64,000 bases of DNA from Hypomesus transpacificus (Eukaryota > Chordata > Actinopteri > Osmeriformes > Osmeridae), in NCBI RefSeq assembly GCF_021917145.1, contig NC_061073.1:1638075-1702074 (forward strand). Direction: 5' to 3'. The position numbers and the translations under genes are program-made. This document shows, piece by piece, positions 3,658 to 52,200 of this stretch. The first letter of the stretch is position 1, and the number at the start of each line of letters is the position of its first letter. The notes under the pieces were generated by a model that saw nothing but the letters and a program-made list of their open reading frames with translations, did no database searches and was not told the origin of the DNA.

Positions 3658-5752
3658 TTTATGACCTTTTTAGTATACCAAACCGTTAAAACAGGATATT
3701 TTTTATAATGTCTAAGACAAATCAGTGGGATTTTGGTGAGTTTACTTCGCTTCCCCACCGGGCAGTTTGCATCAATCTTTGGATACACTGCCTTGGTGAC
3801 GAAACAGTCTGACTTCCGCTATCATATTCTCTTGACCAATGGGAGTCAGGGAAAGGAGTTTTTTTATTCCTCATGTTTAGGATTGCTTGTTAGTCTGCCA
3901 TACATTCCTAGGTCCATGCCAGAAAAAGATTCGTTTGTCCAAATAGATAATGTCAAATGCAAGTATGCCAGAATGTCATACTTGTCCATACTATATCCTA
4001 CTGCATCCGGTCACATTTTGTAGTACGCAAGCCACCATTTCTGGAGAAAGGTCCAGCTGCTGTCCCAGCACTAATTTGTAGGAAATTTAAGCTGAATTTC
4101 CAAATATGGTTCAAATGCTGGTTTGGTAAGAGAAAAGCCAGCGTCCAAACCCGCTCGTCCGGTGTTCACAAAGTAAAAATAAAGAAAGCATTTAACAATA
4201 ATTCGACTAAAACTAGTTATTCAACATGTTATAGTTTTATTTATATAACATAATTAATATGTTAATAATGACTTGTTGGATGTCATACCGATATGGCTCT
4301 TTTGCGGAGTGTAACAACTAACTGGAGGACGTAAAGGAAAAACGGAAAAAAATGGATGGGCCACCAAAAATGTATCGCCAACCTTTTTTCAAAGTATTTA
4401 AGGTTTGTGCTATGAACTGTGACGGATGCATTTAGGAAGAGGGTCAAAGTTCAAGGCGCAATGTTATGACAAAGTAGTATGTCCCAATTGCCTGCATTCT
4501 TCATGCAACAGTACATGATTTGTGAGGGCAGCTGCAGCATTAACTAAGAGTAGAAAGAAGTATGCAAGTTGGGATACAGGGCATACATATTTGCTAAATA
4601 TTTTCTGCCAATATTTCACTTACAAGTTTGGCCCTGCGTTGATTAATTTGGGGATAGTATTCTTTCTAACATTTAGAACACACATCATTCAATATACAGT
4701 ATGCCATTATTGGAAAATAGGCCTACATATGCTCCACATTTGTTATGAAGATCAGCAGCATAAACTTCTCACACTGTCTTGAGAGCTGGGGCTTTGACTC
4801 TTATGACTGCAGCACATACTTTTTTTGTGTTATACCACACCCCATTGCAATTTATACATGTACTCATCAATTTACACTATGGCTTACTCACAGTAAAGCA
4901 AAAAATGTAACTTGCGCACAGCAGTGTCAGCAGTTGTAGGAAGTGTGTAATACTGTGGTTTAGAACTTCCGGTGCATCAGCTTGCCTTTTCAAAAGAAAC
5001 ATACTGCCTCACCCAAGGGGATGGGTGGAGATGGTGTTGTATGTGAAAAAGACTAGTATCTTGCTAAGTAGGCTATAATGTAGTTCAATTAACATGATTT
5101 TAGTTGTTGTATGCTAATGAGTACCTGTAACTGTCAACTAACAATGTGACACCCATTGAATCAACAAAGGCAATGTCAATGATACACTTTTTAGGATCAA
5201 ACTAAAAGTATCTGATGCTATATTTTGTATACATCAATCCTTATTTTAGATTATTTTAATTCATTGAGTTTTGAGAAAATTGAATCAATTTTTTTCAAAA
5301 CAAAGTATAACTTTGAAAGGTCATTGACAGATGAAGTAGAGTTAAGTATTTAGAGTAGTATTCTGTGTGTTTTTAGGTGTGTCTTTCAGACTTCTCTGTT
5401 AATGAATAATACACTTCCTGAGATGGAAAAAACTATTCTGGTACTGGTGTTATCAGCTGGATTGCGTAAAACTATAAAACTGTTGAGTCAGAGAGATCTA
5501 GCAAAGTGTATAACTCTCCTCTCTAATAAACATATTTTCCAAATCCAAATCGAGTTATTTTAGCATAGGTCTCAAATTATAACAGATACCAAATGTTGGA
5601 TGCTTGGAACTGAAAGTGAATTATGTAAATTGGAACTAGGATATTGTACAAAAAGTGTCACTTTGTGAAAGTAAGAATCTTTTGTAGTTCCATGTTACGC
5701 TGTTTAAGAAGACTTGTGATATTTGGTTTGAATTACATTACTAATACATTGA
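3658..5752. other. intergenic spacer between tes and the CPA array
   Basis: This is AT-rich sequence with no exon I can support. The immediate upstream side (about 3658-3720) should hold the testin 5' UTR and promoter, but I see no TATA box. The short open frames here have no splice support or family match. It ends where homology to the copy-B upstream region begins. Confidence 0.6.
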
Positions 5753-6031
5753 TTACGTGACACAAATTTGATCATAAAAGTCTGCCTCATAATGTAGCGT
5801 GCACCACTAACACCTCATGAGCACAGCAGTTGACTTACAAAAATGTTAAAAGTATTAATTTAACCCCTCAAACTTCGTCACACATTTTTTTATGAAGGAA
5901 AGGATAATTAATATGTGGAATATAATAGCTCTAAAAGTGTTTGCAGAACATAGTCTCTGACCCCAAATTATAAAAGAAATGGAAAATTATCAAAAAACAA
6001 CCCAACATTTCACAGTATGTCCTGGATGGTG

Positions 6032-6150: not shown

Positions 6151-9100
6151 ATGATGAAGACACTGCTCATTCTGATCGCTCTGTTTGTGGCCGTTTTCGG
6201 CAAGGAAACTTTTGAGGGGTAAGTGGCATTCGTAGAGAGATGAAAGGCTTCAGGAATCTGTAAAACCTCATTGCAGCGCTATAATATTGGACTGTGTAGT
6301 GAGTGGTATAATAACACTAATAACATTTAGAATTAAGAACAAATGGTTCTGATACATTATATGTATGTGTAGGGAAGGTTTTAGCTTCAAAATCTTTCAT
6401 AGAGATTTATTCTGAATAATAAGAAATAAATGATCTTTAGAAGGATGTTTACATTTCTTTAGCAGAGTTTACTCAACATACATGAATGCAACACATTTTA
6501 AGCAATCACAGTCTCTCTCAATTTCCCTCTTGCAATATGATCTCTAACATTAGCCAAGGTCTTGACATTGTGGTGTGTCCACAGGGATGAGGTCCTTCGT
6601 ATCACTGCAAAGGATGAGTCCCAGCTCGTTCTGATCCATGACCTGTGTGAGATGGAGCTGCTGCATGTGCGTTGTGATTGCAGAGCCAATGGGCCACACA
6701 TCTCATATAATCACTCAAATTAATTAATTTTAAAACTTCAATGCACTCAATATGTACTCAATTTGTCATTCCCATATTGTCAAGCCATAAATGTTGACGG
6801 GTAAATATGTTTGTTCTTTTTCATTCCCAGCTGGATGTCTGGAGAGGGCCTACTGATGTTGCCACCCCTGTGGACATCAGAGTTCCCTTCCACAGCCTGA
6901 AGTCCGTCAAAGCCTACCTGGAGGCCCGGGATGTGCAGTACACCATCATGATCAAGGACCTGCAGGTACGTAGGGGGTCTCCAAACACTTAGGAGGAGAA
7001 GAGCGAAAGACTACAAACTTGCAAACTCCACCCCCACGTTGTCATGTCCTGAAATGTGCCTCTTCAAATGTGAGACTTGGAATTTTGCCGCTTGGAACTT
7101 TTTTTTCTGTCACAAGAGTTACAATAATTGGTCTGAATGCCAAGTGATAACGTCATCATCAGCAACCCACCATAACAACATTGATGTCATTGTTTTCGGA
7201 AGGCTGTTCTAGATGAGGAGCAGACACAGATGCAGATGGCCTCTCGCGCTGCTGAGCCCAGAAACACTGATGCATTTGACTACTCTAACTACCACACCAT
7301 CAATGAGGTCAGTAAAGAGCAGAACATGGTAACAAGTGGCAATTTACTTCGTATGAGATATTTATGACATGCACTACTGACACATGCCATGAAATGCCTG
7401 TTGTGGAAATCCACATGTTGAACAGAGAGTTATGTCCTTTGTCTTTGTAGATCTACAGTTTCCAAGACATGCTAGTGGCTGAGAATCCCCAACTGGTCAG
7501 CAAGATTGTCATTGGCCAGAGTTACCAGGGACGTCCCCTGAATGTACTCAAGGTAAAAATGTGTTAATATTTGTTTGCTCTAATACAGCCTTTTCACATG
7601 ACTTAGCATTGTTTCCATAGTTAATGGTAACTGTTATTACATGGACGCTTTCTCTTTATTCTCTTTTTTTCTATCTCTTACTTTTTACCAGTTCAGCACT
7701 GGCGGAACCAATCGCCCTGCCATCTGGATCGACACCGGTATCCACTCCAGGGAGTGGGTCACCCAGGCCAGTGGTACCTGGTTTGCTAAGAAGGTGCCTT
7801 GAACTTTCCATTTTTCTTTTCCATTGCTGCAATTGCTTCTTCATTTGAATATCTCACCATGTCCTTGTTCTTCTCCACATGGCTAAATGACCAATCTTTT
7901 CTCTTTGAAAAGATATAATAAATACAAATATCAAATGATATTTTTTTCACCATGTAGATTGTGACTGACTATGGTAGTGACCCCACCCTCACCGCAATCC
8001 TGAACAGAATGGATATCTTTTTGGAGATTGTGACCAACCCTGATGGCTTCTTCTACACCCACAACAGTGTGAGTTCCTTGATGCTAGAACACTGAATATG
8101 ATATAAGGGCAGGGATATATAGATACATTGTGTGTCTCATGAAGCAGTATATTCGGTACATTTGACATTTGCTAGGTATGGGTGTTGAATAAGGTTTCCC
8201 GTCTGACCTAGTTATGTCATGAAGTAGATTAAAACTAGCGAACCATGAGTCATTCCAGGGACATTCTCTGTTTACTCAGAACCGCATGTGGCGTAAGACC
8301 AGGCAGCCCAACAGTGGCTCCTCTTGTGTTGGAGTCGACCCCAACAGGAATTGGGATGCTGGTTTTGGAGGTGCAGTATTTCTTCTTTGTGTTTTGTTTT
8401 TACTTCGCTTTTGCACTGCTACATCCAACTGGATGTTCTCCTTCAACAAAATGGTGATGTTTTTTTGTTTTTTCCATTGTTGTGGTTTGGTCATACCAGC
8501 CTGCAGTTTTTTTTTTTACTTGAATGTTTTGGTTGTAACATTGTCAATTTTCTTTTGTTGTCATGTCTACGGTTCTTCAGGTCCTGGTTCCAGTAAAAAC
8601 CCCTGCTCTGAGACCTACAGTGGCCGATCTGCTCACTCTGAGTCGGAGGTGAAGTCCATTGTGGACTTTGTGAAGGCTCATGGTAACATGAAGGCATTTG
8701 TCTCCATCCATGCCTACTCCCAGATGCTCCTCTATCCCTACGGCTACACTTCAACCCCCACTAAGGACCAAAAAGAGCTGGTGGGTCTAAGCAGAGACAA
8801 ATATCTACTCTAATTTCTCTCAGCCATTGATAATCATGTGTTGAATATACATTCACTTTACATACCATGTCACTGCATACCAAAATCTGTATTAAAACAT
8901 TGTTAACCAAGTGTTAGCTGTGGAGATGAATACAGAAGGGTTAGAAGGCACGCTGTGGGTTTGTGGTGAAAGGGACACCTCAATGCTGTAAAGCGGCAGT
9001 TGAAGTAATACAAAAACAAGATTGTTAACAATGTTAATCCACACCTGGAAAACCCAACCACCCCCAAACAAAGTTTCACTTTTCTAATAACTGATAAATA

Positions 9101-9828
9101 GCTATAGTTATTTACTTTTATAGTATAGCTTTAGCTATTATTATGTAGTGACATGGTAGTTAATGTGCCATTGGCTTTATTATCATTACGTTGTTGACAG
9201 GTCGTACATCAAACAAGGCATATAGAGTACCATGATGAGAACTATGATACTCATTTTAAAAGACTTTAGTTTTTACCTCTAATAATTTAAGAATCCATTA
9301 CATTAACAGTACAAGCATATTACACAGTATACATTTAGTTGATTGTATTTTATTTCCTCCAATAGCACGCCCTGGCAAGTAAGGCAATCAATAACCTTGC
9401 TTCCCTGTATGGCACCCGCTACAGATATGGTAGCATTATCAACACCATCTGTAAGTATCACACATCCATTGGTAAACCACCAACTGCACATAATTGACCA
9501 TGCACACCCTCTCAGGCCAACCAATCAACTCACTTTAACAACATGATACTCAACATCCAGTTAAATTACAACAAAATCTAAATTGACTTTTGGCTCTCCA
9601 TTGTATCAGGTGTTGTTATTTTTCTTGCTCTCTTTCTAAGATCAAGCTAGCGGTGGTACCATTGACTGGACTTACAACCAGGGAATCAAGTACTCCTACA
9701 CATTTGAGCTGAGAGATACTGGTCGCTATGGTTTCATCCTGCCCGCCAATCAGATTCTCCCCACTGCTAAGGAGACCTGGCTGGCAATGATGACCATCAT
9801 GGAGCACACCAATGCCAACACTTACTAA
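6151..9828 (+). CDS. pancreatic carboxypeptidase A, copy A (CPA1-like, Thr268)
   Basis: Eleven coding exons: 6151-6218, 6585-6666, 6831-6965, 7203-7307, 7451-7552, 7692-7793, 7958-8068, 8280-8370, 8581-8780, 9366-9450 and 9641-9828. They join to 422 codons plus a stop. The product is a secreted M14 metallocarboxypeptidase zymogen that removes C-terminal hydrophobic residues from peptides in the gut. It has a hydrophobic signal peptide (about residues 1-17), a propeptide (about 18-110) and a catalytic domain. Using mature bovine numbering, zinc ligands His69/Glu72 (GIHSREW) and His196 (SIHAYSQ), Arg127 (MWRKTR), Asn144/Arg145 (PNRNWD), Tyr248 and catalytic Glu270 (FELRDTG) are all present. Ile255 makes it A-type rather than B-type, and Thr268 is CPA1-like. 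Start: the first of two tandem ATGs; either leaves the signal peptide intact. Human CPA1 has 419 residues. Orthology to cpa1, cpa2 or cpa5 is unresolved. Confidence 0.9.
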
Positions 9829-11253: not shown

Positions 11254-11274
11254 GGCATCACTCTGCTTGGCAAG

Positions 11275-12375
11275 ATGAAGGGGCTGCTCATTCTGACCAC
11301 TGTATTGGTGGCTGTTTTCAGCAAGAAGACTTTTGTGGGGTGAGTGAATTTTGTGACATTTGTAGGCTTTCCAAATGACTTGCTGGATGAAAAACATTGT
11401 AACTGAAGTCACATCTCTGTCCAACCGAAATTAATTAGTCTCACATTTGTGATGTATTTGAAGGGATCAAGTCCTTCGTGTTATTGCGAAGGATGAGGTA
11501 CAACTAACTGTCATCCAGGACCTGTGTGAGATGAAGCAGCTTCAGGTGTGTTCATATCATCATGTTCGAAATGAAGGACAAGAAAACATGGCTATATTAT
11601 CACAAGGTGTGAACTGTGTTTCCTCTCTCATCTTGTTGCCATATTCTAATGATCGATTATCTAAAAGTCAGGAACTCCCGCTAATTCATCAGTGGAAATG
11701 TATGGAAGTTGAATCATTGTTTAAAATTATAAACTCAGAGCAACCAAATGTTCAGCTATACATTTTGTGAAATCTGCTCAATCCTTTTCTGAACATTTTT
11801 TCAGTTCACAAACAATGAAGCGGAGCTGATTCATGCAGGGGGACGCGAGACATAGTGCCTCAGTAGCAGCGCGTCACTGGCAGCGCGTCATCACTCAGTA
11901 GGGGCACACCTTCTTAGCAGGGCGGGCTATTTAATCAGGATATTGCTGCACTCTGCTTTGCGAGTGCGACACAGGATGCTTTCTGTTAATCTGCTGCCTC
12001 CGCCTCCCCGGCCTCCACCCTTGGTTCTGTGTTTCTTGTTCAAGGGGGAATGCGTCTCTGCTCTCTGCTCGGATGTCGAAACTGTGTCTCCGTTGGGTGC
12101 GGCAGGGAGCCAATGCAAGCAGAACCATTATGCCAAATCAATTGTTACAATGATGTGTTGTACCGTGTGAATAAAGTATCAAGTAAATACTATACTGAGT
12201 CCTCCTGCCTGAACCTTCCAACAGGATGCAAGTGATGAACTCGCCCTGGGCGCACAATGTGCTAGGACCGACACTGCCTTCAAATCCATTTTTGTGAATA
12301 CTGTAAAATGTAGAATGTATTTTAGATTAGACCATGTGCTCCTCATTCCATACCATCATGATCAAGGACCTGCAG
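11275..12375 (+). pseudogene. truncated C-type carboxypeptidase A relic (exons 1-2 and an exon 3 stub)
   Basis: Exon 1 (11275-11339; [18 protein letters not shown]) and exon 2 (11464-11545) are open, have good splice sites and match copy C. Exon 3 survives only as its last 24 bp (12352-12375); a deletion removed the acceptor and about 110 bp of coding sequence. The following donor reads GGAAGG instead of the GTTGGT seen in C, so splicing out of the stub is lost as well. Exons 4-11 are absent because the tandem-duplication breakpoint falls in intron 3. The TATA box present in C and D is missing: a 25-bp deletion between two GGCAT repeats fused GGCCAGGGCAT to CACTCTG. Intron 2 holds a 466-bp insertion. 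It cannot encode an enzyme. Confidence 0.88.
11811..12276 (+). mobile_element. unclassified insertion in relic intron 2, LTR-like
   Basis: This sequence is absent from the same intron of C and D, which are continuous across the site. It is more GC-rich than its surroundings and contains a TATTTAA-like box (about 11928) and, about 240 bp later, an AATAAA signal (about 12169). That order is typical of a retroviral or Gypsy-type LTR, so a solo LTR or fragment is plausible. I could not find clean TG...CA ends or a target-site duplication. Confidence 0.4.
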
Positions 12376-12779
12376 GAAGGTAGGGGTCAATTGGAATTGA
12401 CTCTACCATTTGTTTTTGAATATGAATTGAACAGCTAATATTTAACCCCCAATCCAGTTTCTAATATTTTTTCTGAAATAAAATAAAAATGTAAATTAAT
12501 TACGTGACACAAATTTGATCAAAACAGTCTGCCTCATAATATGGTGTGCGCCAGAAACTCCTCATTAGCACAGCAGTTGACTTGCAAAAATGTTAAAAGT
12601 ATCAATTTAAGCACTCAAACCTTTTCAAAAAAAAAAATATGAAGGAAAGGATCATTAATATGTGGAATATAATAGCTCTAAAGGTGTTTGCAGAACATAT
12701 TCTCTGACCCCCAAATTATAAAAGAAATGGAAAATTCTCAAAAAACAACCCAACATTTCACAGTATGTCCTGGATGGTG

Positions 12780-12898: not shown

Positions 12899-15800
12899 AT
12901 GATGAAGACACTGCTCATTCTGATCGCTCTGTTTGTGTCCGTTTTCGGCAAGGAAACCTTTGAGGGGTAAGTGGCATTCGTAGAGAGATGAAAGGCTTCA
13001 GGAATCTGAAAAACCTCATTGCAACGCTATAATATTGGACTGTGTAGTGAGTGGTATTATAACACTAATAACTTTTAGAATTAAGAACAAATGGTTCTGA
13101 TACATTATATGTTTATTGTAATGTGTAGGGAAGGTGTTAGCTTCAAAACTTTTCATTGAGATATATTCTGTTTTTTATTAATGAGATTTATTAATAAGAA
13201 ATAAATGATCTTTAGATGGATGTTTATATTTCTTTAGCAGAGTTTACTCAACATACATGAATGCAACACATTTTAGCAATCACATTCTCTCTCAATTTCC
13301 CTCTTGCAATATGATCTCTAACATTGGCCAAGGTCTTGACATTGTGGTGTGTCCACAGGGATGAGGTCCTTCGTATCACTGCAAAGGATGAGTCCCAGCT
13401 CGTTCTGATCCATGACCTGTGTGAGATGGAGCTGCTGCATGTGCGTTGTGATTGCAGAGCCAATGGGCCACACATCTCATATAATCACTCAAATTAATTA
13501 ATCTTAAAAATTCCATTCACTCAATATGTACTCAATTTGTCATTCCCATATTGTCAAGCCATAAATGATGATGAGTAAATATGTTTGTTCTTTTTCATTC
13601 CCAGCTGGATGTCTGGAGAGGGCCTACTGATGTTGCCACCCCTGTGGACATCAGAGTTCCCTTCCACAGCCTGAAGTCCGTCAAAGCCTACCTGGAGGCC
13701 CGGGATGTGCAGTACACCATCATGATCAAGGACCTGCAGGTACGTAGGGGGTCTCCAAACACTTAGGAGGAGAAGAGCGAAAGACTACAAACTTGCAAAC
13801 TCCACCCCCACGTTGTCATGTCCTGAAATGTGCCTCTTCAAATGTGAGACTTGGAATTTTGCCGCTTGGAACTTTTTTTTCTGTCACAAGAGTTACAATA
13901 ATTGGTCTGAATGCCAAGTGATAACGTCATCATCAGCAACCCACCATAACAACATTGATGTCATTGTTTTCGGAAGGCTGTTCTGGATGAGGAGCAGACA
14001 CAGATGCAGATGGCCTCTCGCGCTGCTGAGCCCAGAAACACTGATTCATTTGACTACTCTAACTACCACACCATCAATGAGGTCAGTAAGAAGCAGAAAA
14101 TGGTAATAAGTGGCAATTTACTTCGTATGAGATATTTATGACATGCACTAGTGACACATGCCATGAAATGCCTGTTGTGGAAATCCACATGTTGAACAGA
14201 GAGTTATGTCCTTTGTCTTTGTAGATTTACAGTTTCCAGGACATGCTAGTGGCTGAGAATCCCCAACTGGTCAGCAAGATTGTCATTGGCCAGAGTTACC
14301 AGGGACGTCCCCTGAATGTACTCAAGGTAAAAATGTATTAATATTTGTTTGCTCTAACACAGCCTTTTCACATGACTTAGTATTGTTTCCACAGTTAATG
14401 GTAACTGTTATTACATGGACGCTTTCTCTTTATTCTCTCTTTTTCTATCTCTTACTCTTTCCCAGTTCAGCACTGGCGGAACCAATCGCCCCGCCATCTG
14501 GATCGACACTGGTATCCACTCCAGGGAGTGGGTCACCCAGGCCAGTGGTACCTGGTTTGCTAAGAAGGTGCCTTGAACTTTCCATTTTTCTTTTCCATTG
14601 CTGCAATTGCTTCTGCATTTGAATATCTCACCATGTCCTTGTTCGTCTCCACATGGCCAAATGACCACTCTTTTCTCTTTGAAAGGAAATAATAAATAAA
14701 ATCATCAAATGATATTTTTTTTCACCATGTAGATTGTGACTGACTATGGTAGTGACCCCACCCTCACCGCAATCCTGAACAGAATGGATATCTTTTTGGA
14801 GATTGTGACCAACCCTGATGGCTTCTTCTACACCCACAACAGTGTGAGTTCCTTGATGCTAGAACACTGAATATGATATAAGGGCAGGGATATGTAGATA
14901 CATTGTGTGTCTCATGAAGCAGTTTATTCGGTACATTTGACATTAGCAAGGTATGGGTGTTGAATAAGGTTTCCGGTCTGACCTAGCTATGTCATGAAGT
15001 AGATTAAAACTAGCGAACCATGAGTCATTCCAGGGACATTCTCTGTTTACTCAGAACCGCATGTGGCGTAAGACCAGGCAGCCCAACAGTGGCTCCTCCT
15101 GTGTTGGAGTCGACCCCAACAGGAATTGGGATGCTGGTTTTGAAGGTGCAGTATTTTTTCTTTGTGTTTTGTTTTCACTTCGCTTTTGCACTGCTACATC
15201 CAACTGGATGTTCTCCTTCAACAAAATGGTTTACATTTTGTCCATTGTTGTGGTTTGGTCATACCAGTCTGCGTTTTATTTTTTACTTGAATGTTTTGGT
15301 TGTAACATTGTCAATTTTCTTTTGTTGTCATGTCTACGGTTCTTCAGGTCCTGGTTCCAGTAAAAACCCCTGCTCTGAGACCTACAGTGGCCGATCTGCT
15401 CACTCTGAGTCGGAGGTGAAGTCCATTGTGGACTTTGTGAAGGCTCATGGTAACATGAAGGCATTTGTCTCCATCCATGCCTACTCCCAGATGCTCCTCT
15501 ATCCCTACGGCTACACTTCAACCCCCACTAAGGACCAAAAAGAGCTGGTGGGTCTAAGCAGAGACAAATATCTACTCTAATTTGTCTCAGCCATTGATAA
15601 TCATGTGTTGAATATAAATTCACTTTGCAAGCAGGCTACATACACTACCATGTCACTGCATACCAAAATCTGTATTAAAACATTGTTAACCAAGTGTTAG
15701 CTGTGGAGATGAATACAGAAGGGTTAGAAGGCACGCTGTGGGTTCATGGTGAAAGGGACACCTCAATGCTTTAAAGGGGCAGTTAAAAGTGTTACAAAAA

Positions 15801-16499
15801 CAAGATCAATGTTAATATACCCCTGGAAAACCCAACCACCCCCAATCAAAGTTTAACTTTTCTGATAACCGGTAAATAAATAATAGCCATAGCTATTTAC
15901 TATTATAGTATACCTATAGCTAATACTATGTAGTGACTTAGTTTTTACCTCTAATAATTTAAGAATCCATTACATTACCCTTAGTACAAGCATTTCACAT
16001 AGTATATAGTTGATTGTATTTTATTTCTTCCAATAGCACGCCCTGGCAAGTAAGGCAATCAATAATCTTGCTTCCCTGTATGGCACCCGCTACAGATATG
16101 GTAGCATTATCAACACCATCTGTAAGTATCACACATCCATTGGTAAACTACCAACTGCACATAATTGACCATGCAAACCCTCTCAGGCCAACCAATCAAC
16201 TCACTTTAACAACATGATACTCAACATCCAGTTAAATTACAACAAAATCTAAATGTACTTTTGGCTCTCCATTGTATCAGGTGTTGTTATTTTTCTTTCT
16301 CTCTTTCTAAGATCAAGCTAGCGGTGGTACCATTGACTGGACTTACAACCAGGGAATCAAGTACTCCTTTGGTTTTGAGCTGAGAGATACTGGTCGCTAC
16401 GGTTTCATCCTGCCAGCCAATCAGATTCTCCCCACTGCTAAGGAGACCTGGCTGGCAATGATAACCATCATGGAGCACACCAATGCCAACACTTACTAA
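12899..16499 (+). CDS. pancreatic carboxypeptidase A, copy B (Gly268 pocket)
   Basis: Exons: 12899-12966, 13359-13440, 13605-13739, 13977-14081, 14225-14326, 14466-14567, 14733-14843, 15055-15145, 15348-15547, 16037-16121 and 16312-16499; 422 codons plus stop. It is a secreted M14 carboxypeptidase zymogen almost identical to copy A, introns included, so the duplication is recent. All zinc-binding and catalytic residues (His69, Glu72, Arg127, Asn144, Arg145, His196, Tyr248, Glu270) are present. Two differences matter. Codons 267-268 read Phe-Gly ([10 protein letters not shown]) instead of Tyr-Thr, which should widen the S1' pocket. The conserved Gly at the end of NWDAGFG is Glu (GFEG) at the exon 8/9 join. 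The first is probably functional; the second could be tolerated or damaging. CPA2-like specificity for bulky aromatic residues is an inference from residue 268. Confidence 0.9.
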
Positions 16500-17883: not shown

Positions 17884-20800
17884 ATGAAGGGGCTGCTCAT
17901 TCTGACCACTGTATTGGTGGCTGTTTATAGCAAGAAGACTTTTGTGGGGTAAGTAAATTAGTGACATCTGTAGGCTTTCCAAATGACTTGCTGGATGAAA
18001 AACATTGTAACTGAAGTCACATCTCTGTCCAACCGTAATTAATTAGTCTCACATTTGTGATGTATTTGAAGCGATCAAGTCCTTCGTGTTTTTGCGAAGG
18101 ATGAGGTACAACTAACTGTCATCCAGGACCTGTCTGAGATGAAGCAGCTTCAGGTGTGTTCATATCATCATGTTTGAAATGGATGACGAGAAGAAATGGC
18201 TATATTATCACAAGGTGTGAACTGTCTTTCCTCTCTCTTGTCTGAAAGGGAGGAACTCCTGCTAATTTATCAGTGTAAATGTATGGAGGTTGAATCCTTA
18301 AAAAAAAAAGAAACTCAGAGCAAACAAATGTTCAGCAATACGTTTTGTAAATTCTGCACAATCCTCTCCTGAAATTTTTTTCAATTCACATTTAACCTTC
18401 AAATCCATTTTTGTGAAACATTGTAAAATGTAGACTATTTATATGCTTTGAGATTAACCATGTGTTCCTTATCATTCCCAGCTGGATGTCTGGAGGGGAC
18501 CTACTGATGTTGCCACCCCTATGGACATCAGAGTTCCCTTCCACAGCCTGATGTCCGTCAAAGCCTACCTGGAGGCCCGGGATGTGCAGTACACCATCAT
18601 GATCAAGGACCTGCAGGTTGGTAGGGGGTAATTGGAATGGACTCTACCTCCGTTTGTTTTTGAACATGAATTGAACAGTAAATACGATGATTTTAAGTGT
18701 ATTCAATCCAGTTACGGCTAATTTTTTTGAAATAAAGTAAAAAGGTAAATTATTTGAATGTCAATGACTGCCCATGGTTGAATATGAGACAACACCCTTC
18801 TGCCCTTTTGCCAAAGGCTGACATTGACAAAGAGGAGAGACAGATGCAAAGAAGTTCCTATGCAGCCAAGACTACTGATGACTTTGACTATGCCAACTAT
18901 CACGTCCTTGATGAGGTAAACACCACAGCACCAAAAATGTACAATAGTTGTTTATTTTGCTTCTGTACCAAACACCAAAGTCATGTAATATCCCATGCAC
19001 ATTAAGGTTTCCCTAGGACTGTTGGGGCCAATATGAAAAGCTGTGTGTTTTCACCAGATCTACAGTTTCCAGGATATGCTTGTGGCAGAGAACCCTACAT
19101 TGGTCAGCAAGATTGTGATTGGCCAGAGCTATGAGGGCCGTCCCTTGAATGTGCTTAAGGTAAGCTGTTAAGAGATAAGAAAGCTTCTGTGTTTATCATA
19201 TCTGTAAACATCAGGGGTGATGATTAAATAAGAGGATATCAAGCTATTTCCTTTCTTTCTCCTAGTTCAGCACTGGAGGAACTAACCGTCCTGCAATTTG
19301 GATTGACACTGGCATCCACTCCAGAGAGTGGATTACTCCAGCCAGTGGTGCATGGTTTGCCAAAAAGGTGACCAAATTCTGATTATTTCTTTTTTATATA
19401 CTTTAGAGAGAAGATTTACCATCTTGTATTTCCTTGCTGTGATCCTGTACATTTTATTTTGTTCATGATATTGTTCCCTGTCCTGATATGTCCCTGTCTA
19501 TAAAACTGAAGGGGGTATGATGAGAACTATTTCCCATTCAAAGTAAAACTCATCCATTCATCACCTGCCCTCCCAAGCACTATACAATACTTTATAGTAA
19601 CTGGTTAAATGTTTAATGGACAGATTGTGCTTGATTATGGACATAATCCTGCCCTGACTGCTATCCTGGACAAAATGGACATCCTTCTGGAGATGGTGGT
19701 TAATCCTGATGGCTATCACTTCACTCATACCAGTGTGAGTTAGTAAAAGTCTGATTCCCTGTCTGCTTTGGAGTGCACAGACATTGTCAGACTGTTAACA
19801 AAGTTGTCTAACCTGAGCCAATATGCTGACAGAACCGCATGTGGCGTAAAACAAGGAAGCCTAATCCTGGTTCTTCCTGTGTTGGAGTTGACCCCAACAG
19901 GAACTGGGATGCCGGTTTTGGAAGTATGTCTAATTGTCTGATACAGTATAGATTTGTGACGACTGTAAAGCAAGTTAAAATGACCCTGACATGTATTTGG
20001 ACAACGATCCCACCATCTCACCGTTCCCCAGCTGCCGGCTCCAGCGGGAACCCCTGTGATGAGACCTACCGTGGTCCAACTGCTCACTCTGAGTCTGAGA
20101 TCAAGTCCATTGTGGACTTCATGAAGGCTCATGGAAATATCAAAGCGGTCCTTTCCATCCATAGCTACTCCCAGATGCTCCTCTACCCTTACGGCTACAC
20201 CAGCACCTCTGCTAAGGACCAGAAAGAGCTGGTGAGTCCAGCAATGTCTTTCTCAACCCTATCAGTTTCTGATAAGAGGGGTGACTGTTTAGTTTGAGCT
20301 AGGAACAGCTGGTTAAATTCTCAGATAAATCAAGTCTGGTACAGTACAAACAACATAAAATGTTCAATATTAACTGCATGTGAAACTTTTTACTAACGCA
20401 TTTTTCACATGAATTAAAAGCAATTTTACAATATATCCACAGCATGAACTGGCTAAAAAAGCCATCACTGATCTGGCCTCCTTGTATGGAACAGCCTACA
20501 GATACGGGAGTATGATCAACATCATATGTAAGTAGGCTATCAAACATTCCCTTACACCATCTCACCCCAGGTTTCTTATTGTAAACCTAGTGTAAAGCAT
20601 TGAAAAAGATGTATTATACTGGAGGTAATTCCCATAATTTCCAGTTTTGCATTCAAGATGTTGCTATTATTCTTGACTTTGAATGAAAATGGCTTCCCCA
20701 CAAATGACTTGCTTGATTCCTCCCAGATCAAGCCAGTGGCAACACCATTGACTGGGCCTACAACCAGGGTATCAAGTACTCCTACACGTTTGAGCTGAGA

Positions 20801-20914
20801 GATACTGGTCGCTATGGATTTATCCTGCCCGCCAATCAGATCATCCCCACTGCTAAGGAGACCTGGCTGGCACTAATGGCCATCATGGAGCACATCAATG
20901 CCAACACTTACTAA
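17884..20914 (+). CDS. cpa1: pancreatic carboxypeptidase A1-like, copy C
   Basis: Exons: 17884-17948, 18072-18153, 18482-18616, 18817-18915, 19058-19159, 19266-19367, 19624-19734, 19833-19923, 20032-20231, 20443-20527 and 20727-20914; 419 codons plus stop, equal to human CPA1. Signal peptide [16 protein letters not shown] is followed by a propeptide and an M14 catalytic domain. The zinc ligands (GIHSREW, SIHSYSQ), Arg127 (MWRKTR), Asn144/Arg145 (PNRNWD), Tyr248, Ile255, Thr268 and Glu270 are all intact, so it should be an active A1-type enzyme secreted from the exocrine pancreas. It differs from A and B by two fewer codons in exon 4 and a distinct N-terminus, and it groups with D. Its 3' UTR, however, matches A and B rather than D. 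The symbol rests on family features and on the neighbourhood near cep41; the paralogue number is uncertain. Confidence 0.88.
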
Positions 20915-22141: not shown

Positions 22142-23159
22142 AGCTCTATGGGCTCAAAACGGGGCCAAAAGTATTGCAAATGCGTATAGAACGATCCACA
22201 AATGTAAAACGGGTTCCACAAATGTAAAATATGTTCCGCAAATGTAAAAGGTCTTTCGCAAATGTAAAACTGGTTCCGCAAATGTAAATTGCTTTCCGCA
22301 AATGTAAATCAAGATCCACAGTATTGTGGATGCGTATGACTATCCATGAATGTAAAACGCAATCCACAAATGTAAAACGTGATCCATGAATGTAAAACGC
22401 GATCCACAAATGTAAAACCTGATCCACAAATGTAAAACTGGTCCCGCAAATGTGAAACACATTCCGCAAATGTAAAACATGTTCCACAAATGTAAAATTT
22501 GTAGCGCCCCCTAGCTTGTCTTATACTATTTTGAAGTGCGCTCCCCGAATTCTTCTTTTAGCGAGAGATCTCTCTCTCTTAAATTAATTAATTAATGGCC
22601 TAGTATTCAGCTTTATCGTTTCCTATCTAACTTTTACTTATTACTATTTTCCCAACAAGAAGATACCCAGCTGGCAATTTGATTCCGCGCCGGATCTGGC
22701 CCGAATGTTGCGCAGCATTCGGGCCAGATCCGTAATACAGAGTTGGGCCGGTGTCTTTTTGCAACGCGGCCCAATGCTGGCGCGGATCCATTTTATGGAT
22801 CCATAACGGAACAGGGCCAGGACTGGCCCAGATCCGTAAAGCGGATTGTCCCGCATTGCAAACGGACACCGGCCCGGCTCCGTATTACGGATTCATTTAT
22901 CAAGTAAAATGGCCCATGCAGTTGTAAAATGTGATTGTTCGTGGACAATTAATCACATTTGTGGATCTTGATTTACATTTGTGGAAAGCAATTTACATTT
23001 GCGGAACCAGTCTTACATTTGCGAAACACCTTTTACATTTGCCGAACATGTTTTACATTTGTGGAACACGTTTCACATTTGTGGAATACGTTTTAACATT
23101 TGTGGATCGTTCTATACGCATTTACAACACTTTTGTCCCCGTTTTGAGCCCATAGAGCT
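22142..23159. mobile_element. foldback element with minisatellite inverted arms
   Basis: The left arm (22142-22320) and right arm (22960-23159) are inverted copies: AGCTCTATGGGCTCAAAACG on the left is mirrored by CGTTTTGAGCCCATAGAGCT on the right. Each arm is built of 20-bp units of the type GATCCACAAATGTAAAACGG. The left side carries additional units to about 22498 that have no partner on the right. The central part (about 22660-22900) is GC-rich and itself strongly palindromic. No transposase is visible, so it is a non-autonomous foldback-type (FB/Galileo-like in structure) element. The assignment rests on structure only. Confidence 0.8.
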
Positions 23160-26189: not shown

Positions 26190-27217
26190 GTGCTTTCAGA
26201 CGTGAGAGGCTATCGCCCGATAGCACTGACCTCTGTCATCTTGAAGTGCTTTGAGCGGCTAGTCAAATCATTCATCTGCTCCTCGCTGCCCCCCACCCTG
26301 GACCTTATGCAGTTTGCATACCGGTCCAACAGGTCTACAGAAGATGCCATCGCTTTGACTATGCACATCGCTCTCTCCCACCTGGACAAAGGGAATATGT
26401 GAGGATGCTGTTCATTGACTACAGCTCAGCATTCAAGACCATCATCCCCTCCAGACTGGTCTCCAAATTTGTGGACTTGGGACTAAGCACCTCCCTCTGC
26501 AAGTGGATCTTCCACTTCCTGACTGGGAGGCCACAGGTGGTGAGAATTGGTGACCGCACCTCATCCGTACTGATCACCAACACAGGCACCCCCCAGGGCT
26601 GTGTGCTCAGCCCTCTCCTGTTCTCCTTGTTCACTCACGACTGTGCGGCAACGCACAGCTCCAACCTCCTTGTTAAGTTTGCTGACGACACAACCATCGT
26701 GGGCCTCATCTCTGACAGTGACGAGTCAGCCTACAGAGAGAAAGTTGACACCCTAAAATCATGGTGCCAGGACAATAACCTCTCTCTCAACATCAGCAAG
26801 ACCAAGGAGATGATTGTGGACTATAGGAGGCGGCAGGAGGAGGAGCATGCACCCCTACTCATCAACGGATCTGAAGTGGAGAAGGTCAGCTGCTTCAAGT
26901 TCCTCGGGGTGAACATCAGCAACGACCTCACCTGGTCTGTTCACACGGACAAGGTGTTCAAAGCGGCCCATAAACGCCTATTCTTCCTGAGGAGACTGAA
27001 GAAGTTTGGTATGCTCACTAACCTTTACAGATGGACTATAGAGAGCATTCTGACTGGTTGCATTACAGTGTGGTATGGGAGCTGCACAGACAAGGACCGC
27101 AAGGCCCTACGAAGTGTGGTCCGTTCTGCTGAGTTCATCATCGGCAGGAAGCTCCCAGCCCTACAGGACACCTACTACAAACGTTGCCTCGGGAAAGCTA
27201 TATATATTCTCATGTGA
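26190..27217 (+). pseudogene. non-LTR retrotransposon reverse transcriptase remnant, frameshifted
   Basis: Two overlapping frames (26190-26402 and 26399-27217) together give the middle and C-terminal part of a LINE reverse transcriptase. Visible motifs are RGYRPIALTSV and [13 protein letters not shown] in the first frame, then [33 protein letters not shown] and the catalytic [11 protein letters not shown] box in the second, followed by a thumb-like region. A frame change near 26400, the absence of an endonuclease domain upstream and no clear 3' tail show that it is a 5'-truncated dead copy. The sequence resembles fish L2/CR1/Rex-type LINEs; I cannot fix the clade. Confidence 0.85.
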
Positions 27218-28392: not shown

Positions 28393-31378
28393 ATGAAGGG
28401 GCTGCTCATTCTGGCAACTGTATTGGTGGCTGTTTTCAGTAAGAAGACTTTTGTGGGGTGAGTGAATTAGTGAATTGGTGACATTTGTAGGCTTTCCAAA
28501 TGACTTGCTGAATGAAAAACATTGTAACTGAAGTCACAAATCTGTCCAACCGTAATTAATTAGTCTCACATTTGTGATGTATTTGAAGGGATCAAGTCCT
28601 TTGTGTTTTTGCGAAGGATGAGGTACAACTAACTGTCATCCAAGACCTGTCTGAGATGAAGCAGCTTCAGGTGTGTTCATATCATCATGTTTGAAATGAA
28701 GGACAAGAAAAGATGGCTATATTATCACAAGGTGTGAACTGTCTATCGTCTCTTATCTTCTGCACAATCCTCTTCTGAAAATGTTTTCAATTCGCACACA
28801 ACCTTCAAATCCATATTTGTGAAACACTGTAAAATGTAAACTATTTATATGCATTTTAGATTAACCATGTGTTCCTTCTCATTCCCAGCTGGATGTCTGG
28901 AGAGGGTCTACTGATATTGCCACCCCTGTGGACATCAGAGTTCCCTTCCACAGCCTGATGTCCGTCAAAGCCTACCTGGAGGCCCGGGATGTGCAGTACA
29001 CCATCATGATCAAGGACCTGCAGGTTGGTAGGGGGTGATTGGAATGGACTCAACCATTTGTTTTTGAATATGAATTGTACAGCAAATACGATGATTTTAA
29101 GTGTATTCAACCCCCATCCAGTTCCGGATATTTTTTCTGAAATAAAGTAAAAAGGTACATTTATTTGAATGTCAATGACTGCCCATGGTTGAATATGAGA
29201 CAACACCCTTCTGCCCTTTTGACAAAGGCTGACATTGACAAAGACGAGGGACAGATGCAAAGAAGTTCCTATGCAGCCATGACTACTGATGACTTTGACT
29301 ATGCCAACTATCACGTCCTTGATGAGGTAAACACCAAAGCACCAAAAATGTACAATAGTTGTTTATTTTGCTTCTGTACCAAACACCAAAGTCATGTAAT
29401 ATCCCATGCACATTAAGGTTTCCCTAGGACTGTTGGGGCCAATATGAAAAGCTGTGTGTTTTCACCAGATCTACAGTTTCCAGGATATGCTTGTGGCAGA
29501 GAACCCTACATTGGTCAGCAAGATTGTGATTGGCCAGAGCTATGAGGGCCGTCCCTTGAATGTGCTTAAGGTAAGCTGTTAAGAGATAAGAAAGCTTCTG
29601 TGTTTATCATATCTGTAAACATCAGGGGTGATGATTAAATAAGAGGATATCAAGCTATTTCCTTTCTTTCTCCTAGTTCAGCACTGGAGGAACTAACCGT
29701 CCTGCAATTTGGATTGACACTGGCATCCACTCCAGAGAGTGGATTACTCCAGCCAGTGGTGCATGGTTTGCCAAAAAGGTGACCAAATTCTGACCAAAAA
29801 TTATATACTTTAGAGAGAAGATTTACCATCTTGTATTTCCTTGCTGTGATCCTGTACATCTTATTTTGTTCATGATATTGTTCCCTGTCCTGATATGTCC
29901 CTGTCTATAAAACTGAAGGGGGTATGATGAGAACTATTTCCCATTCAAAGTAAAACTCACCCATTTATCACCTGCCCTCCCAAGAACTATAAAATACTTT
30001 ATAGTAACTGGTTAAATGTTTCATGGACAGATTGTGCTTGATTATGGACATAATCCTGCCCTGACTGGTATCCTGGACAAAATGGACATCCTTCTGGAGA
30101 TGATGGTTAATCCTGATGGCTATCACTTCACTCATACCAATGTGAGTTAGTAAAAGTTTGATTCCCTGTCTGTTTTGGAGTGCACAGACATTGTCAGACT
30201 GTTAACAAAGTTGTCTAACCTGAGCCAATATGCTGACAGAACCGCATGTGGCGTAAAACAAGGAAGCCTAATCCTGGTTCTTCTTGTGTTGGAGTTGACG
30301 CCAACAGGAACTGGGATGCCGGTTTTGGAAGTATGTCTAATTGTCTGATACAGTATAGATTTGTGACGACTGTAAAGCAAGTTAGAATGACCCTGACATG
30401 TATTTGGACAACGATCCCACCATCTCACCGTTCCCCAGCTGCCGGCTCCAGCGGGAACCCCTGTGATGAGACCTACCGTGGTCCAACTGCTCACTCTGAG
30501 TCTGAGATCAAGTCCATTGTGGACTTCATGAAGGCTCATGGAAATATCAAAGCGGTCCTTTCCATCCATAGCTGCTCCCAGATGCTCCTCTACCCTTACG
30601 GCTACACCAGCACCTCTGCTAAGGACCAGAAAGAGCTGGTGGGTCCAGCAACGTCTTTCTCAACCCTATCAGTTTCTGATAAGGGAGGTGACTGTTTAGT
30701 TTGACTTAAGAACAGCTGGTTAAATTCTCAGACAAGTCAAGTCTGTAAGTCGCTCTGGATAAGAGCGTCTGCTAAATGACTAAATGTAAATGTAAAGTCT
30801 GGTACAGTACAAACAACATAAAATGTTCAATATTGACTGCATGTGAAACTTTTTGTTAACATATATGTCACATGAATTACAAGCTATTTTACAATATATC
30901 CACAGCATGACCTGGCTAAAAAAGCCATCACTGATCTGGCCTCCCTGTATGGAACAGCCTTCAGATACGGGAGTTCATTCAACACCCTCTGTAAGTATGC
31001 TATCAAACATTTCCTTACACCATCTCACCCCAGGTTTCTTATTGTAAACCTAGTGTTAAGCATTGAAAAAGGTGTATTATACTGGAGGTAATTCCCATAA
31101 TTTCCAGTTTTGCATTCAAGATGTTGCTATTATTCTGGACTTTGAATGAAAATGGCTTCCCTCACAAATGACTTGCTTGATTCCTCCCAGATCAAGCCAG
31201 TGGCAACACCATTGACTGGGCCTACAACCAGGGTATCAAGTACTCCTACACATTTGAGCTGAGAAATACTGGTCGCTATGGATTTATCGTGCCTGCCAAT
31301 CAGATCATCCCCACTGCTAAGGAGACCTGGCTGGCACTAATGGCCATTATGGAGCACACCAATGCCAACACTTACTAA
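28393..31378 (+). CDS. cpa1: pancreatic carboxypeptidase A1-like, copy D (Cys198, Asn273)
   Basis: Exons: 28393-28457, 28589-28670, 28889-29023, 29228-29326, 29469-29570, 29677-29778, 30031-30141, 30240-30330, 30439-30638, 30906-30990 and 31191-31378; 419 codons plus stop. It is a close paralogue of C, introns included: a secreted A-type metallocarboxypeptidase zymogen. His69, Glu72, Arg127, Asn144, Arg145, His196, Tyr248, Ile255, Thr268 and Glu270 are intact. Positions normally constant are changed, though: Tyr198 to Cys (SIHSCSQ, subsite residue), Asp273 to Asn (ELRNTG) and Arg to Cys in the propeptide (VLCVFAKDE). Upstream homology to C is cut to about 105 bp, and the 3' UTR is unlike that of A, B and C. 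It is convergent with cep41, the position of human CPA1. It may be functional or starting to decay. Confidence 0.86.
30746..30794 (+). mobile_element. 49-bp SINE/LINE tail insertion in D intron 9
   Basis: The tail AGTCGCTCTGGATAAGAGCG...AAATGTAAATGTA is flanked by the 7-bp target duplication AAGTCTG (30739-30745 and 30795-30801). Copy C has the uninterrupted site CAAGTCTGGTAC, so the insertion postdates the C-D split. Confidence 0.9.
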
Positions 31379-49200: not shown

Positions 49201-52200
49201 GTGTGGGAAAGGGAATTTTTAAGGTCCATGTTTAAGATGGGTCGGTAAGGAATTTAAGTTTTTCCATTGCATGTTCCAGCCGTCATTATTCACATTTATA
49301 CTGATACAAGAAGCTGATGGAATCGTGTCAAATGTTCTGTATCAAACTGTCGATATACGCTTAGTGATCGTAAAATAGTCGGATAATGAAAGCAAGTACA
49401 GCATATTACAAAGAAAATTGTGTGTGGTGTGATTGAAGTTTTCTGCAAAAGGGAAACAAATTCACTTCCTGTGAGAGGAAGGAGCCCAAAGGGGTCATGG
49501 TCTCTCCGGAGGTATGGAATGAAACCCAACCCTGGCTCAGTCCCAGGTTAAGCCATCATCAGTGGACTGTCCAACAGACCACCTGTTAGGAAGTCATTCA
49601 TCTGTGCCCCAACAGTCTTGTATGATATTCCCATGACCCAAAACCTTGTCCAAAATAAGTTTGGTTCTACAAGTCCTGAATGAACTTCCCACAAGTCAAT
49701 CCCTAATGGTTTTGCCAAATAAGTCCAGATCCAGAGCAAAAACCAAGTTCAGTTGACCCCTTGTCTTGACTTGTTGCTAACGCATCAGCTACCCACGTCC
49801 ATCCATGAGACTTTCCGATCGCAACCAATCCTGAGAATTTCATTCAATGTGTTTTACCGTCTTTAAAATTGCTCATGGTCTGCATAGTAATGTGAAACGT
49901 ATTACCTGTTTTATCCCCCTGATATCTACAGACTAACCATTACTTTTGAGTTCTGTTTCTTATTTTGATTAATTTGTATCCAGGTCAAGATTGTGTCAAA
50001 ATACCAGATCTATACATGGCCACTGCTTTACTTTTGCCATAGACATACAGAAAAAGTTCTGTTAACCAATGTTTTCTTTGTTAAGGTATTGGACTTAAAA
50101 TTCCCTCAATTAAATCTGATTATCTTTTTGTTGGTGGCAGTTAGACTAGTATGTGTGGGAATGCAGGAAAGGTTCGATGGCTCCAAGTCTGGATCTGGAA
50201 AAGGATCTGGTTTAGCCTGGGACTCCTATTGTTTTACTTAAGGGGAATTAGCAAATGGCAGGCAGCTTATAGTAAATTGTGAGTTCCCACAGGTGCTTTG
50301 CAGAATGTTAGGTATAAACTGAAAGCAGATTAGTAGGCATTTGTTGAGCAACGCAGCTTGGCCCTCAGTAAATCCCTCAGTGACCCCTCCTGTTCCAGCA
50401 ACTTTTTGTGTATTGATGCATTTTGCCTCGTTTTCTGAGGCTTTATGAAATTGGAAGTTGCTTAATTTTGCTGTACTTACCATTCTTTGAGTATTTTCTC
50501 TCTCAATCCTCCCGCCAGTGTGTGTGTTTTATTTATGTGGTCAACTGTTTGCTAAATTTCCATTTGTTGGTCCCACCTGTTATTTTTTGCAGTGTGCTAC
50601 AGTGTGAATAGGATGGCTGGTCTGTGTGTCATAAAAGCTGTGATCATGCCTGGCTTTGGATTTTTGTCCAAATAGCTTGAACAGATTCCACTGTCCTACA
50701 TGCATGTATACACACACTGATGACACGTACTTTACACCTCTCCAAATGGCATATTACCTTCTCTGTCCAGATATTTTCTATAATTGCATGTTTGCTTTTC
50801 CTTTCCCTCCTTCAGCCTCATTCCTGCACTCACCTATTTCATTTACAGTGCCCTCCAAAAGTATTGGAACAGTGAGGCGAATTCCTTTATTTTTGCTGTA
50901 GACTGAAAACATTTGGGCTTGACATCAAATAATGAACGTGAGACCAGAGATCAACGTTTCAGCTTTTATTTCCAGGTATTTACATCAGGATCTGATGCAC
51001 AACTAAGAAAATATCACATTTTGTTTGAATCCACCCATTTGTCATGTGATCAAAAGTATTGGAACAGATATACTTAAAACATATTTAAGTGAATAAGACT
51101 TAATATTTAGTTTCAAATCCTTTGCTTTCAATAACTGCAGCAAGTCTGTGACCCATTGATGTCACCAAACTTTTGCATTCTTCCTTTTTGATGCTTTCCC
51201 AGGCTTTCACTGCAGCCTCTTTCAGTTGTTGTTTGTTTTGTGGGGTTCCTCCCTTCAGTCTCCTCTTAAGCAGGTAAAATGCATGCTCTATAGGGTTTAA
51301 GTCTGGAGATTGACTTGGCCAGTTTAATACCTTCCATTTCTTGCCCCTGATGAACTCCTTTGTTGTTTTGGCAGTGTGTTTTGGGTCGTTATCTTGCTGC
51401 ATGATGAAGGCTCTGCCAATCAGTTTGGTTGCATCTTTCCTTAAATTGGCAGACAAAATGTTTCTGTAGACTTCCGAGTTCATTTTGCTGCTGCCATCAT
51501 GTGTTACATCCTCAATGAAGATTAATGAGCCCGTCCCAGAAGAAGCCATGCAAGCCCAAGCCATGACATTACCTCCACCGTGTTTCACAGATGAGCTTGT
51601 GTGTTTGGGATCATGAGCAGTTCCTTTCTTTCTCCAAACTTTAGCCTTTCCATCACTTTGGTAAAAGTTAATCTTTGTCTCATCAGTCCATAAAACTTTG
51701 TCCCAGAATTTTTGAGGTTCATCTCTGTACTTTTTGGCAAATTCCAGCCTGGCCTTCCTATTCTTCTTGCTAATGAGTGGTTTGCATCTTCTGGTGTAGC
51801 CCTTGTACTTTTGTTCATGAAGTCTTCTGCGAACAGTAGATAGTGATACCTTCACTCCTGCCATCTGGAGGTTGTTGCTGATCTCACTAACAGTTGTTTT
51901 AGGGTCTTTCTTTACAGCTCTTACAATGTTTCTGTCATCAACTGCTGATGTTTTCCTTGGTCTACCTGTTCGACGTCTGTTACTTAGTACACCAGTAGTT
52001 TTCTTCTTCTTCAGGACATTCCAAATGGTTGTACTGGCTATGGCCAATGTTTCTGCAATGGCTCTGATTGATTTTCCATCTTCTCTAAGACTCACAATTG
52101 CTTGTTTTTCACCCAAAGACAGCGCTCTGGTTTTCATGTTGTTTTCACCTCTGAATACAGTCTGCATAGACAAAACCTATCTTACCCAATCTGAACCTGA

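Follow-up and report, generated by a model that had tools for sequence, protein, structure and literature searches.

Copy B, one of four intact carboxypeptidase genes arrayed in the window (the whole stretch of 64,000 nucleotides that was analysed), encodes Phe-Gly at residues 267-268, directly before Phe269 and the catalytic Glu270. The gene is intact and constrained, and its product is a secreted procarboxypeptidase of the CPA1 type, within a known enzyme family. The array comprises the following features.

6151..9828, + strand: copy A, CPA1-type, 11 exons, 422 aa, Thr268; sister of copy B
11274..12500, + strand: C-type relic, cut short, separating A from B; what is left is exons 1-2, the last part of exon 3 and a portion of intron 3
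12899..16499, + strand: copy B, intact CPA1-type procarboxypeptidase, 11 exons, 422 aa, Gly268
17884..20914, + strand: copy C, second CPA1-type lineage, 11 exons, 419 aa, Met243, Asn253, Thr268
28393..31378, + strand: copy D, 11 exons, 419 aa, Ser243, Phe244, Leu247, Asn253, Thr268; sister of copy C

The Phe267-Gly268 site and the anatomy of the array

Codons 265-270 of copy B (16362-16379, + strand) read Y265-S266-F267-G268-F269-E270. The codons for residues 267-268 are TTT GGT (Phe-Gly; 16368-16373) in copy B, TAC ACA (Tyr-Thr; 9697-9702) in copy A, TAC ACG in copy C and TAC ACA in copy D, the latter two also encoding Tyr-Thr. The five contiguous bases at 16369-16373 are TTGGT in copy B versus ACACA in copies A and D and ACACG in copy C. 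The initial annotation of this DNA had reported Phe-Gly in B against Tyr-Thr in A with five of six bases differing, and the sequences of both copies confirm it. Its description of two near-identical copies is right for A and B, which share 416 of 422 residues, but is incomplete, as the array contains four intact copies and a relic. The conventional numbering was taken from a phmmer alignment of the last exon of copy B to residues 249-309 of chain 1pyt_B, which we take to be bovine CPA1. It also fits in copy A, where H69, R127, N144, H196, and Y248 fall at the expected numbers with no net indel. Phe-Gly is correctly placed at 267-268 in copy B.

All four copies have 11 exons and an uninterrupted translation, and the 11 exons of copy B all have splice signals and an open frame. 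The synonymous divergence is about 0.04 for A-B, about 0.05 for C-D and about 0.75 for A-C, indicating that A and B are sisters and that C and D are sisters. The relic contains inserted DNA and its upstream 25-base block with a TATA-like sequence is missing, while the DNA directly after it matches a 29-base stretch (5745-5773) of the sequence upstream of copy A. From the location of the relic between A and B and this match at its 3' junction, it appears that a tandem duplication copied a unit extending from ~400 bases upstream of the start codon of A to intron 3 of its C-type neighbour. The duplication appears to have generated the order A, truncated relic, B and intact C, the breakpoints being our reading of the sequence, and the relic seems to have later lost most of exon 3 and gained the inserted DNA.

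The neighbours of the array are presumably testin and CEP41, with weak domain matches below the Pfam cut-offs (PET, 13.9 bits; rhodanese, 18.3 bits). The window also contains an open 358-aa Tc1-like transposase frame (51103-52176, - strand; HTH_Tnp_Tc3_2 and DDE_3). By eye, a 320-aa open frame between copies C and D (26255-27214, + strand) has the look of a LINE-type reverse transcriptase, and short repeats of the form CCRCAAATGTAAA run first one way and then the opposite way at 22190-22500 and 22975-23110.

Family assignment and the S1' pocket

Copy B matched PF02244 (Propep_M14) with 71.5 bits and PF00246 (Peptidase_M14) with 350.6 bits, both above the cut-off. Like vertebrate pancreatic CPA1, it has a signal, a propeptide and a catalytic domain, aligned over residues 2-419 of 422, and its predicted fold is clear from the full-length similarity to solved CPA1. 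In the comparison with solved relatives, copy B scored 639 bits for CPA1 (5om9), 524 for CPA2 (1aye), 480 for CPA4 and 360 for CPB, and copy C scored 629 for CPA1 and 516 for CPA2; the CPA1-type assignment is based on these bit scores of B and C and not on a tree. Human CPA1 (2v77) was among the solved CPA1 chains compared with copy B. All seven residues listed as required in a passage of PMC9925722 (H69, E72, H196, R127, N144, R145, and E270) are present in each of the four copies. Ile255 is also present in all four, and a hydrophobic residue at this position is the mark of A-type specificity in the CPA1-type M14A enzymes.

At residue 268, the CPA1 chains 5om9 and 1pyt have Thr and 1pca has Ser, compared with Gly in copy B. 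We take 1pca to be pig procarboxypeptidase A. Residues A250, G253, and I255 of chain 1pyt_B are also found in copy B. Residue 268 of CPA2 is Ala, and the smaller residue is thought to widen the S1' pocket. Copy B resembles CPA2 in its smaller 268 residue, but its sequence is CPA1-like (639 versus 524 bits). Small residues at 268 are not unusual, as Ser in 1pca and Ala in a fish CPA6-like gene exemplify, and the presence in copy B of Gly, rather than Thr or Ser, concerns a variable pocket position that is no requirement for membership.

The engineered T268G human CPA1 has the same residue changed to Gly as in copy B. Such an enzyme was reportedly engineered by Smith in 1997 and is said to have been used with prodrugs by Wolfe in 1999. 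The engineered human enzyme reportedly accepts bulkier P1' side chains. Copy B differs from it in being a natural fish enzyme and in additionally carrying Y267F and G152E, the latter lying near the Arg145 loop in the sequence. The statement in the initial annotation that a T268G form of human CPA1 had been made agrees with the literature (Wolfe, 1999). Its placement of residue 268 in the S1' pocket also agrees with the passages of PMC3940198 on the pocket, which list residues 144, 243, 250, 253, 255, 256, and 268 and name Thr268 as a residue part-way down it. In the pocket passages of PMC7698808 and PMC11677197, residues 203, 207, and 255 are named and 268 is absent.

With Gly268, copy B would lack the side chain with which Thr lines the S1' pocket beside E270, and the pocket would be wider. 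We infer this larger pocket by analogy, from position 268 and the engineered human T268G enzyme. Copy B should keep cutting because the zinc ligands H69, E72, and H196, the carboxylate anchors R127, N144, and R145 and the catalytic E270 are untouched, and A-type specificity is expected because Ile255 and all of the listed catalytic residues are kept. Hydrophobic C-terminal residues would still be cut, and bulkier P1' residues (Trp, substituted Phe/Tyr) would be taken better than by copy A. The parallel with the engineered enzyme suggests that copy B may be able to digest bulkier protein ends. Phe267 is what the compared CPA1 chains have at this position, and the change should be conservative.

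The CPO genes duplicated in tandem in fish and Xenopus, as described in a passage of PMC9925722, resemble the present array in being M14A duplicates with gene conversion and changes at specificity residues. The CPO duplicates in that passage change at residue 255, whereas here residue 268 (and 243 in copy D) changes and 255 stays Ile.

Origin of the five-base replacement

The A-B pair shows 19 differences over 1269 coding bases, 91 over 2277 in-gene noncoding bases and 6 over 422 residues (98.6% identity). The residue differences from A to B are Ala to Ser in the signal peptide, Ala to Ser at residue 6, G152E, Y267F, T268G, and M298I. Exon 11 has eight differences in 188 bases, five of which form the contiguous run at codons 267-268; the remaining three comprise two silent changes and M298I, and the run is flanked by 57 upstream and 26 downstream bases that are identical in A and B. 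Across the A-B alignment of 5,958 columns, with 209 mismatches (19 coding and 190 noncoding), the run is the sole in-gene mismatch run of at least three bases that is not within 10 columns of a gap. Beyond the genes, a single clean run of six bases falls in a homopolymer of A/T close to the margin of the duplicated block, and further runs lie beside gaps; clean runs of two number 14. When the 19 coding differences were shuffled over 1269 sites, a contiguous run of five arose in 0 of 100,000 trials and a run of at least four in 2 of 100,000. The cluster is therefore too tight for independent drift, as the initial annotation had argued.

We lean towards an origin in which copy B changed after the duplication by one multi-nucleotide replacement. 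Tandem duplication of the unit from A to intron 3 of the C-type gene would have produced copy B, and one multi-nucleotide mutation would then have changed ACACA to TTGGT and Tyr267-Thr268 to Phe267-Gly268. We infer both the single event and its direction. As a point against this origin, a search over 2 kb turned up no template for the replacement sequence better than those of random 5-mers: the best match covering the five bases had 6-7 bases, and an equally good match was available within 2 kb for 180 of the 243 possible replacement 5-mers and within 200 bases for 81.

It is extremely improbable that the difference comes from an error of assembly or base calling, or from an allele left uncollapsed. 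The in-gene noncoding DNA of A and B differs by 4% with indels of up to 113 bases, and the two copies lie on one contig with different downstream neighbours (the relic and intact C, respectively). Exon-11 DNA was found at four places in the array only, with no alternative haplotype, and an in-frame replacement of five bases is atypical of errors.

The initial annotation had offered conversion of copy B from a donor paralogue with the Phe-Gly motif as one source of the change. The array does convert, and a cluster of changes is the expected trace of a conversion tract. To look for a donor, the 437-Mb assembly was searched with the protein of the last exon of copy B at E values up to 10. Nine loci were obtained, the four array copies and five others, the latter named from sequence features and not from a tree. 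Residues 266-268 of the five are SFT in a CPB-like gene, AFA in a CPA6-like gene, AFT (followed by FELQ) in a CPB2-like gene, and SFT and SYT in two CPO-like genes. The CPA6-like gene has Met255, given in a passage of PMC2945764 as a defining feature of CPA6. The CPB2-like gene (L019; G000:C12:7127116-7130268) is compact, with family matches spanning ~1.6 kb and FELQD in place of FELRD.

Among the nine M14A genes found, residue 268 is Thr in seven, Ala in one (the CPA6-like gene) and Gly in copy B alone. A degenerate pattern covering every codon spelling of FGFELRDT had a single site in the whole assembly, in copy B. The looser pattern FELRDxG, which excludes copy D (FELRN) and L019 (FELQD), had 12 sites, comprising seven carboxypeptidases and five whose context is unlike that of a carboxypeptidase, and it added no carboxypeptidase to the nine loci. 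Exon-11 DNA gave four matches in the whole assembly, all inside the array, and a query joining intron 10 to the first part of exon 11 had full-length matches in A and B only, with two partial matches in C and D. No Phe-Gly donor paralogue was thus found in the assembly, either with the FGFELRDT pattern or among the eight other M14A genes, which have Thr or Ala at 268. Together with the identity of the exon-11 flanks to those of A, these results speak against conversion from another existing paralogue, which we consider highly improbable.

Beyond this assembly, six related loci were found when bacterial and archaeal genomes were scanned, two of which reached the E270 strand, both with Thr at 268; these are too few to gauge the rarity of Gly268. 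Literature searches returned no report of a natural Gly268 in a carboxypeptidase, which is not proof of absence, and no match to FGFELRDTG, although papers seldom print sequences. On fish cpa1 tandem arrays and multinucleotide change in duplicates, they returned nothing specific besides the passages of PMC9925722.

Conversion between the A/B and C/D lineages bears on another account, in which the A/B ancestor acquired Phe-Gly by ordinary substitutions along its long stem and, once the duplication had taken place, copy A was overwritten by a C/D-type tract of at most ~47 bases. Exon 3, which encodes propeptide (A 6831-6965, B 13605-13739, C 18482-18616 and D 28889-29023, all + strand), differs between A/B and C/D at 3-4 of 135 bases, versus about 10-31% across the other exons compared, with exons 2 and 5-10 at roughly 15-31%, a pattern that indicates gene conversion within the array. 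Over codons 263-309, the synonymous differences from C are 5 of ~27 in B (P about 0.003) and 3 of ~27 in A, compared with ~46% gene-wide (both P <0.005). Codons 263-266 and 269-276 of copy B have no synonymous differences from C and D; with codon 277 added, the 13 codons beside the cluster have one synonymous difference in 8.7 sites, which is borderline (P 0.03-0.05), and the result for codons 263-309 is the firmer of the two. The region from codon 263 looks to have been homogenised with C/D (TAC ACA/ACG) before copy B changed.

The overwriting of copy A is possible but doubtful in our judgement. It would not require a multi-nucleotide mutation, and it fits with the conversion to which exon 3 points and which the codons from 263 onwards suggest. 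In codons 267-277, copy A equals D at all six A-B differences and C at five of the six. Phe267 is the usual residue among the other M14A genes found: it occurs in the CPB-like, CPA6-like, CPB2-like and one CPO-like gene and in two CPA1 alignments compared, for which reason this part of the Phe-Gly state of B could be old. On the other hand, the synonymous sites of B to either side of the cluster already resemble those of C/D, only a short tract could have been transferred into A, and the amino acid changes of the A-B pair polarise to B.

Polarised against C/D, an outgroup that is distant and lies inside a converting array, 15 of the 19 coding differences fall to B, three to A and one is unpolarised. 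The polarity of one difference scored to B (8324/15099) is ambiguous, as C sides with B while D does not, and its removal leaves 14 to 3 (P = 0.013). Without the cluster, the counts are 10 to 3 (P = 0.09), or 9 to 3 once the ambiguous site is dropped as well (P = 0.15), and neither is significant. All six amino acid changes polarise to B (P = 0.03), or five of five with the adjacent pair counted once (P = 0.06), residue 6 being scored to B by nucleotide only and the other five by residue. The excess of changes on B is suggestive only.

The cluster can be explained without selection, by either a single multi-nucleotide mutation or the overwriting of A with C/D-type sequence. The initial annotation had also raised selection; if positive selection on substrate specificity had fixed the substitutions in B one after another, this would account for the change of a specificity residue and for the amino acid changes scored to B. 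However, the branch is short for five independent changes, and dN/dS of the A-B pair, which had been proposed as a check, gave a value of 0.17 (0.11 without codons 267-268) that points to overall constraint. By residue count over the seven positions listed in PMC3940198, the pocket is not significantly over-represented among the mature changes, with 1 of 5 for A-B (P = 0.11) and 1 of 15 for C-D (P = 0.30). We regard such stepwise, selection-driven change as improbable.

A second replacement run at a pocket residue, in the C-D pair, could also be taken in favour of selection. The longest clean mismatch run between C and D is four coding bases at codons 243-244 (C 20512-20515, D 30975-30978, + strand). 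Residue 243, a named pocket residue, is Met in C, Ser in D and Ile in A and B, and residues 243-244, MI or II in the other copies, are SF in D. The other C-D runs of at least three bases are a clean noncoding run of three and a noncoding four-base run beside a gap. A random four-base coding run would touch one of the seven pocket codons from 39 of 1263 starts (3.1%), and a five-base run from 44 of 1262 (3.5%). Since the A-B run was singled out by the initial annotation for its pocket position, the C-D run alone provides an independent test, one that was picked out post hoc.

A further possibility, which we hold to be less likely than not, concerns function: the change in B may be neutral or mildly damaging and tolerated thanks to the backup of A, C and D. 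This can hold together with our preferred origin by a multi-nucleotide mutation after duplication. Four copies are present, and Ser and Ala occur at 268 elsewhere. Copy D has Y198C, P143A, D273N, and I247L at sites common to the other three copies, with a C-D dN/dS of 0.49, and may be drifting or changing function. Against it, neither a stop codon nor a frameshift interrupts copy B, its catalytic residues are all kept, and the dN/dS of the A-B pair is low.

Substrate specificity within the array

No CPA2- or CPA4-type gene was found in the assembly outside the array. In comparison with solved chains, the last-exon query scored 93-94 bits for CPA2 and 63-70 bits for CPB; because the CPA2 chains outscore CPB and the fish CPB-like gene was recovered, a fish CPA2, if assembled, would probably have been detected. 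One speculative reading, which we think rather unlikely, is that copies A-D together cover the P1' range that mammals split between CPA1 and CPA2, by multi-base block replacements, with copy B replacing CPA2. We are equally doubtful that the array is a natural specificity library whose S1' residues have been retooled at 267-268 in B and 243-244 in D.

Should A and B behave alike, theirs would be an ordinary pocket difference between duplicates. A natural Gly268 beside a 98.6%-identical Thr268 sister would provide a matched pair for testing the role of residue 268 in specificity, and the same pair would test whether block mutations shift the specificity of duplicated digestive enzymes in one step. 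If copy B changed after the duplication and bulky residues are preferred by B but not by A, copy B would be a possible substitute for a missing CPA2 and would repeat in nature what protein engineering achieved.
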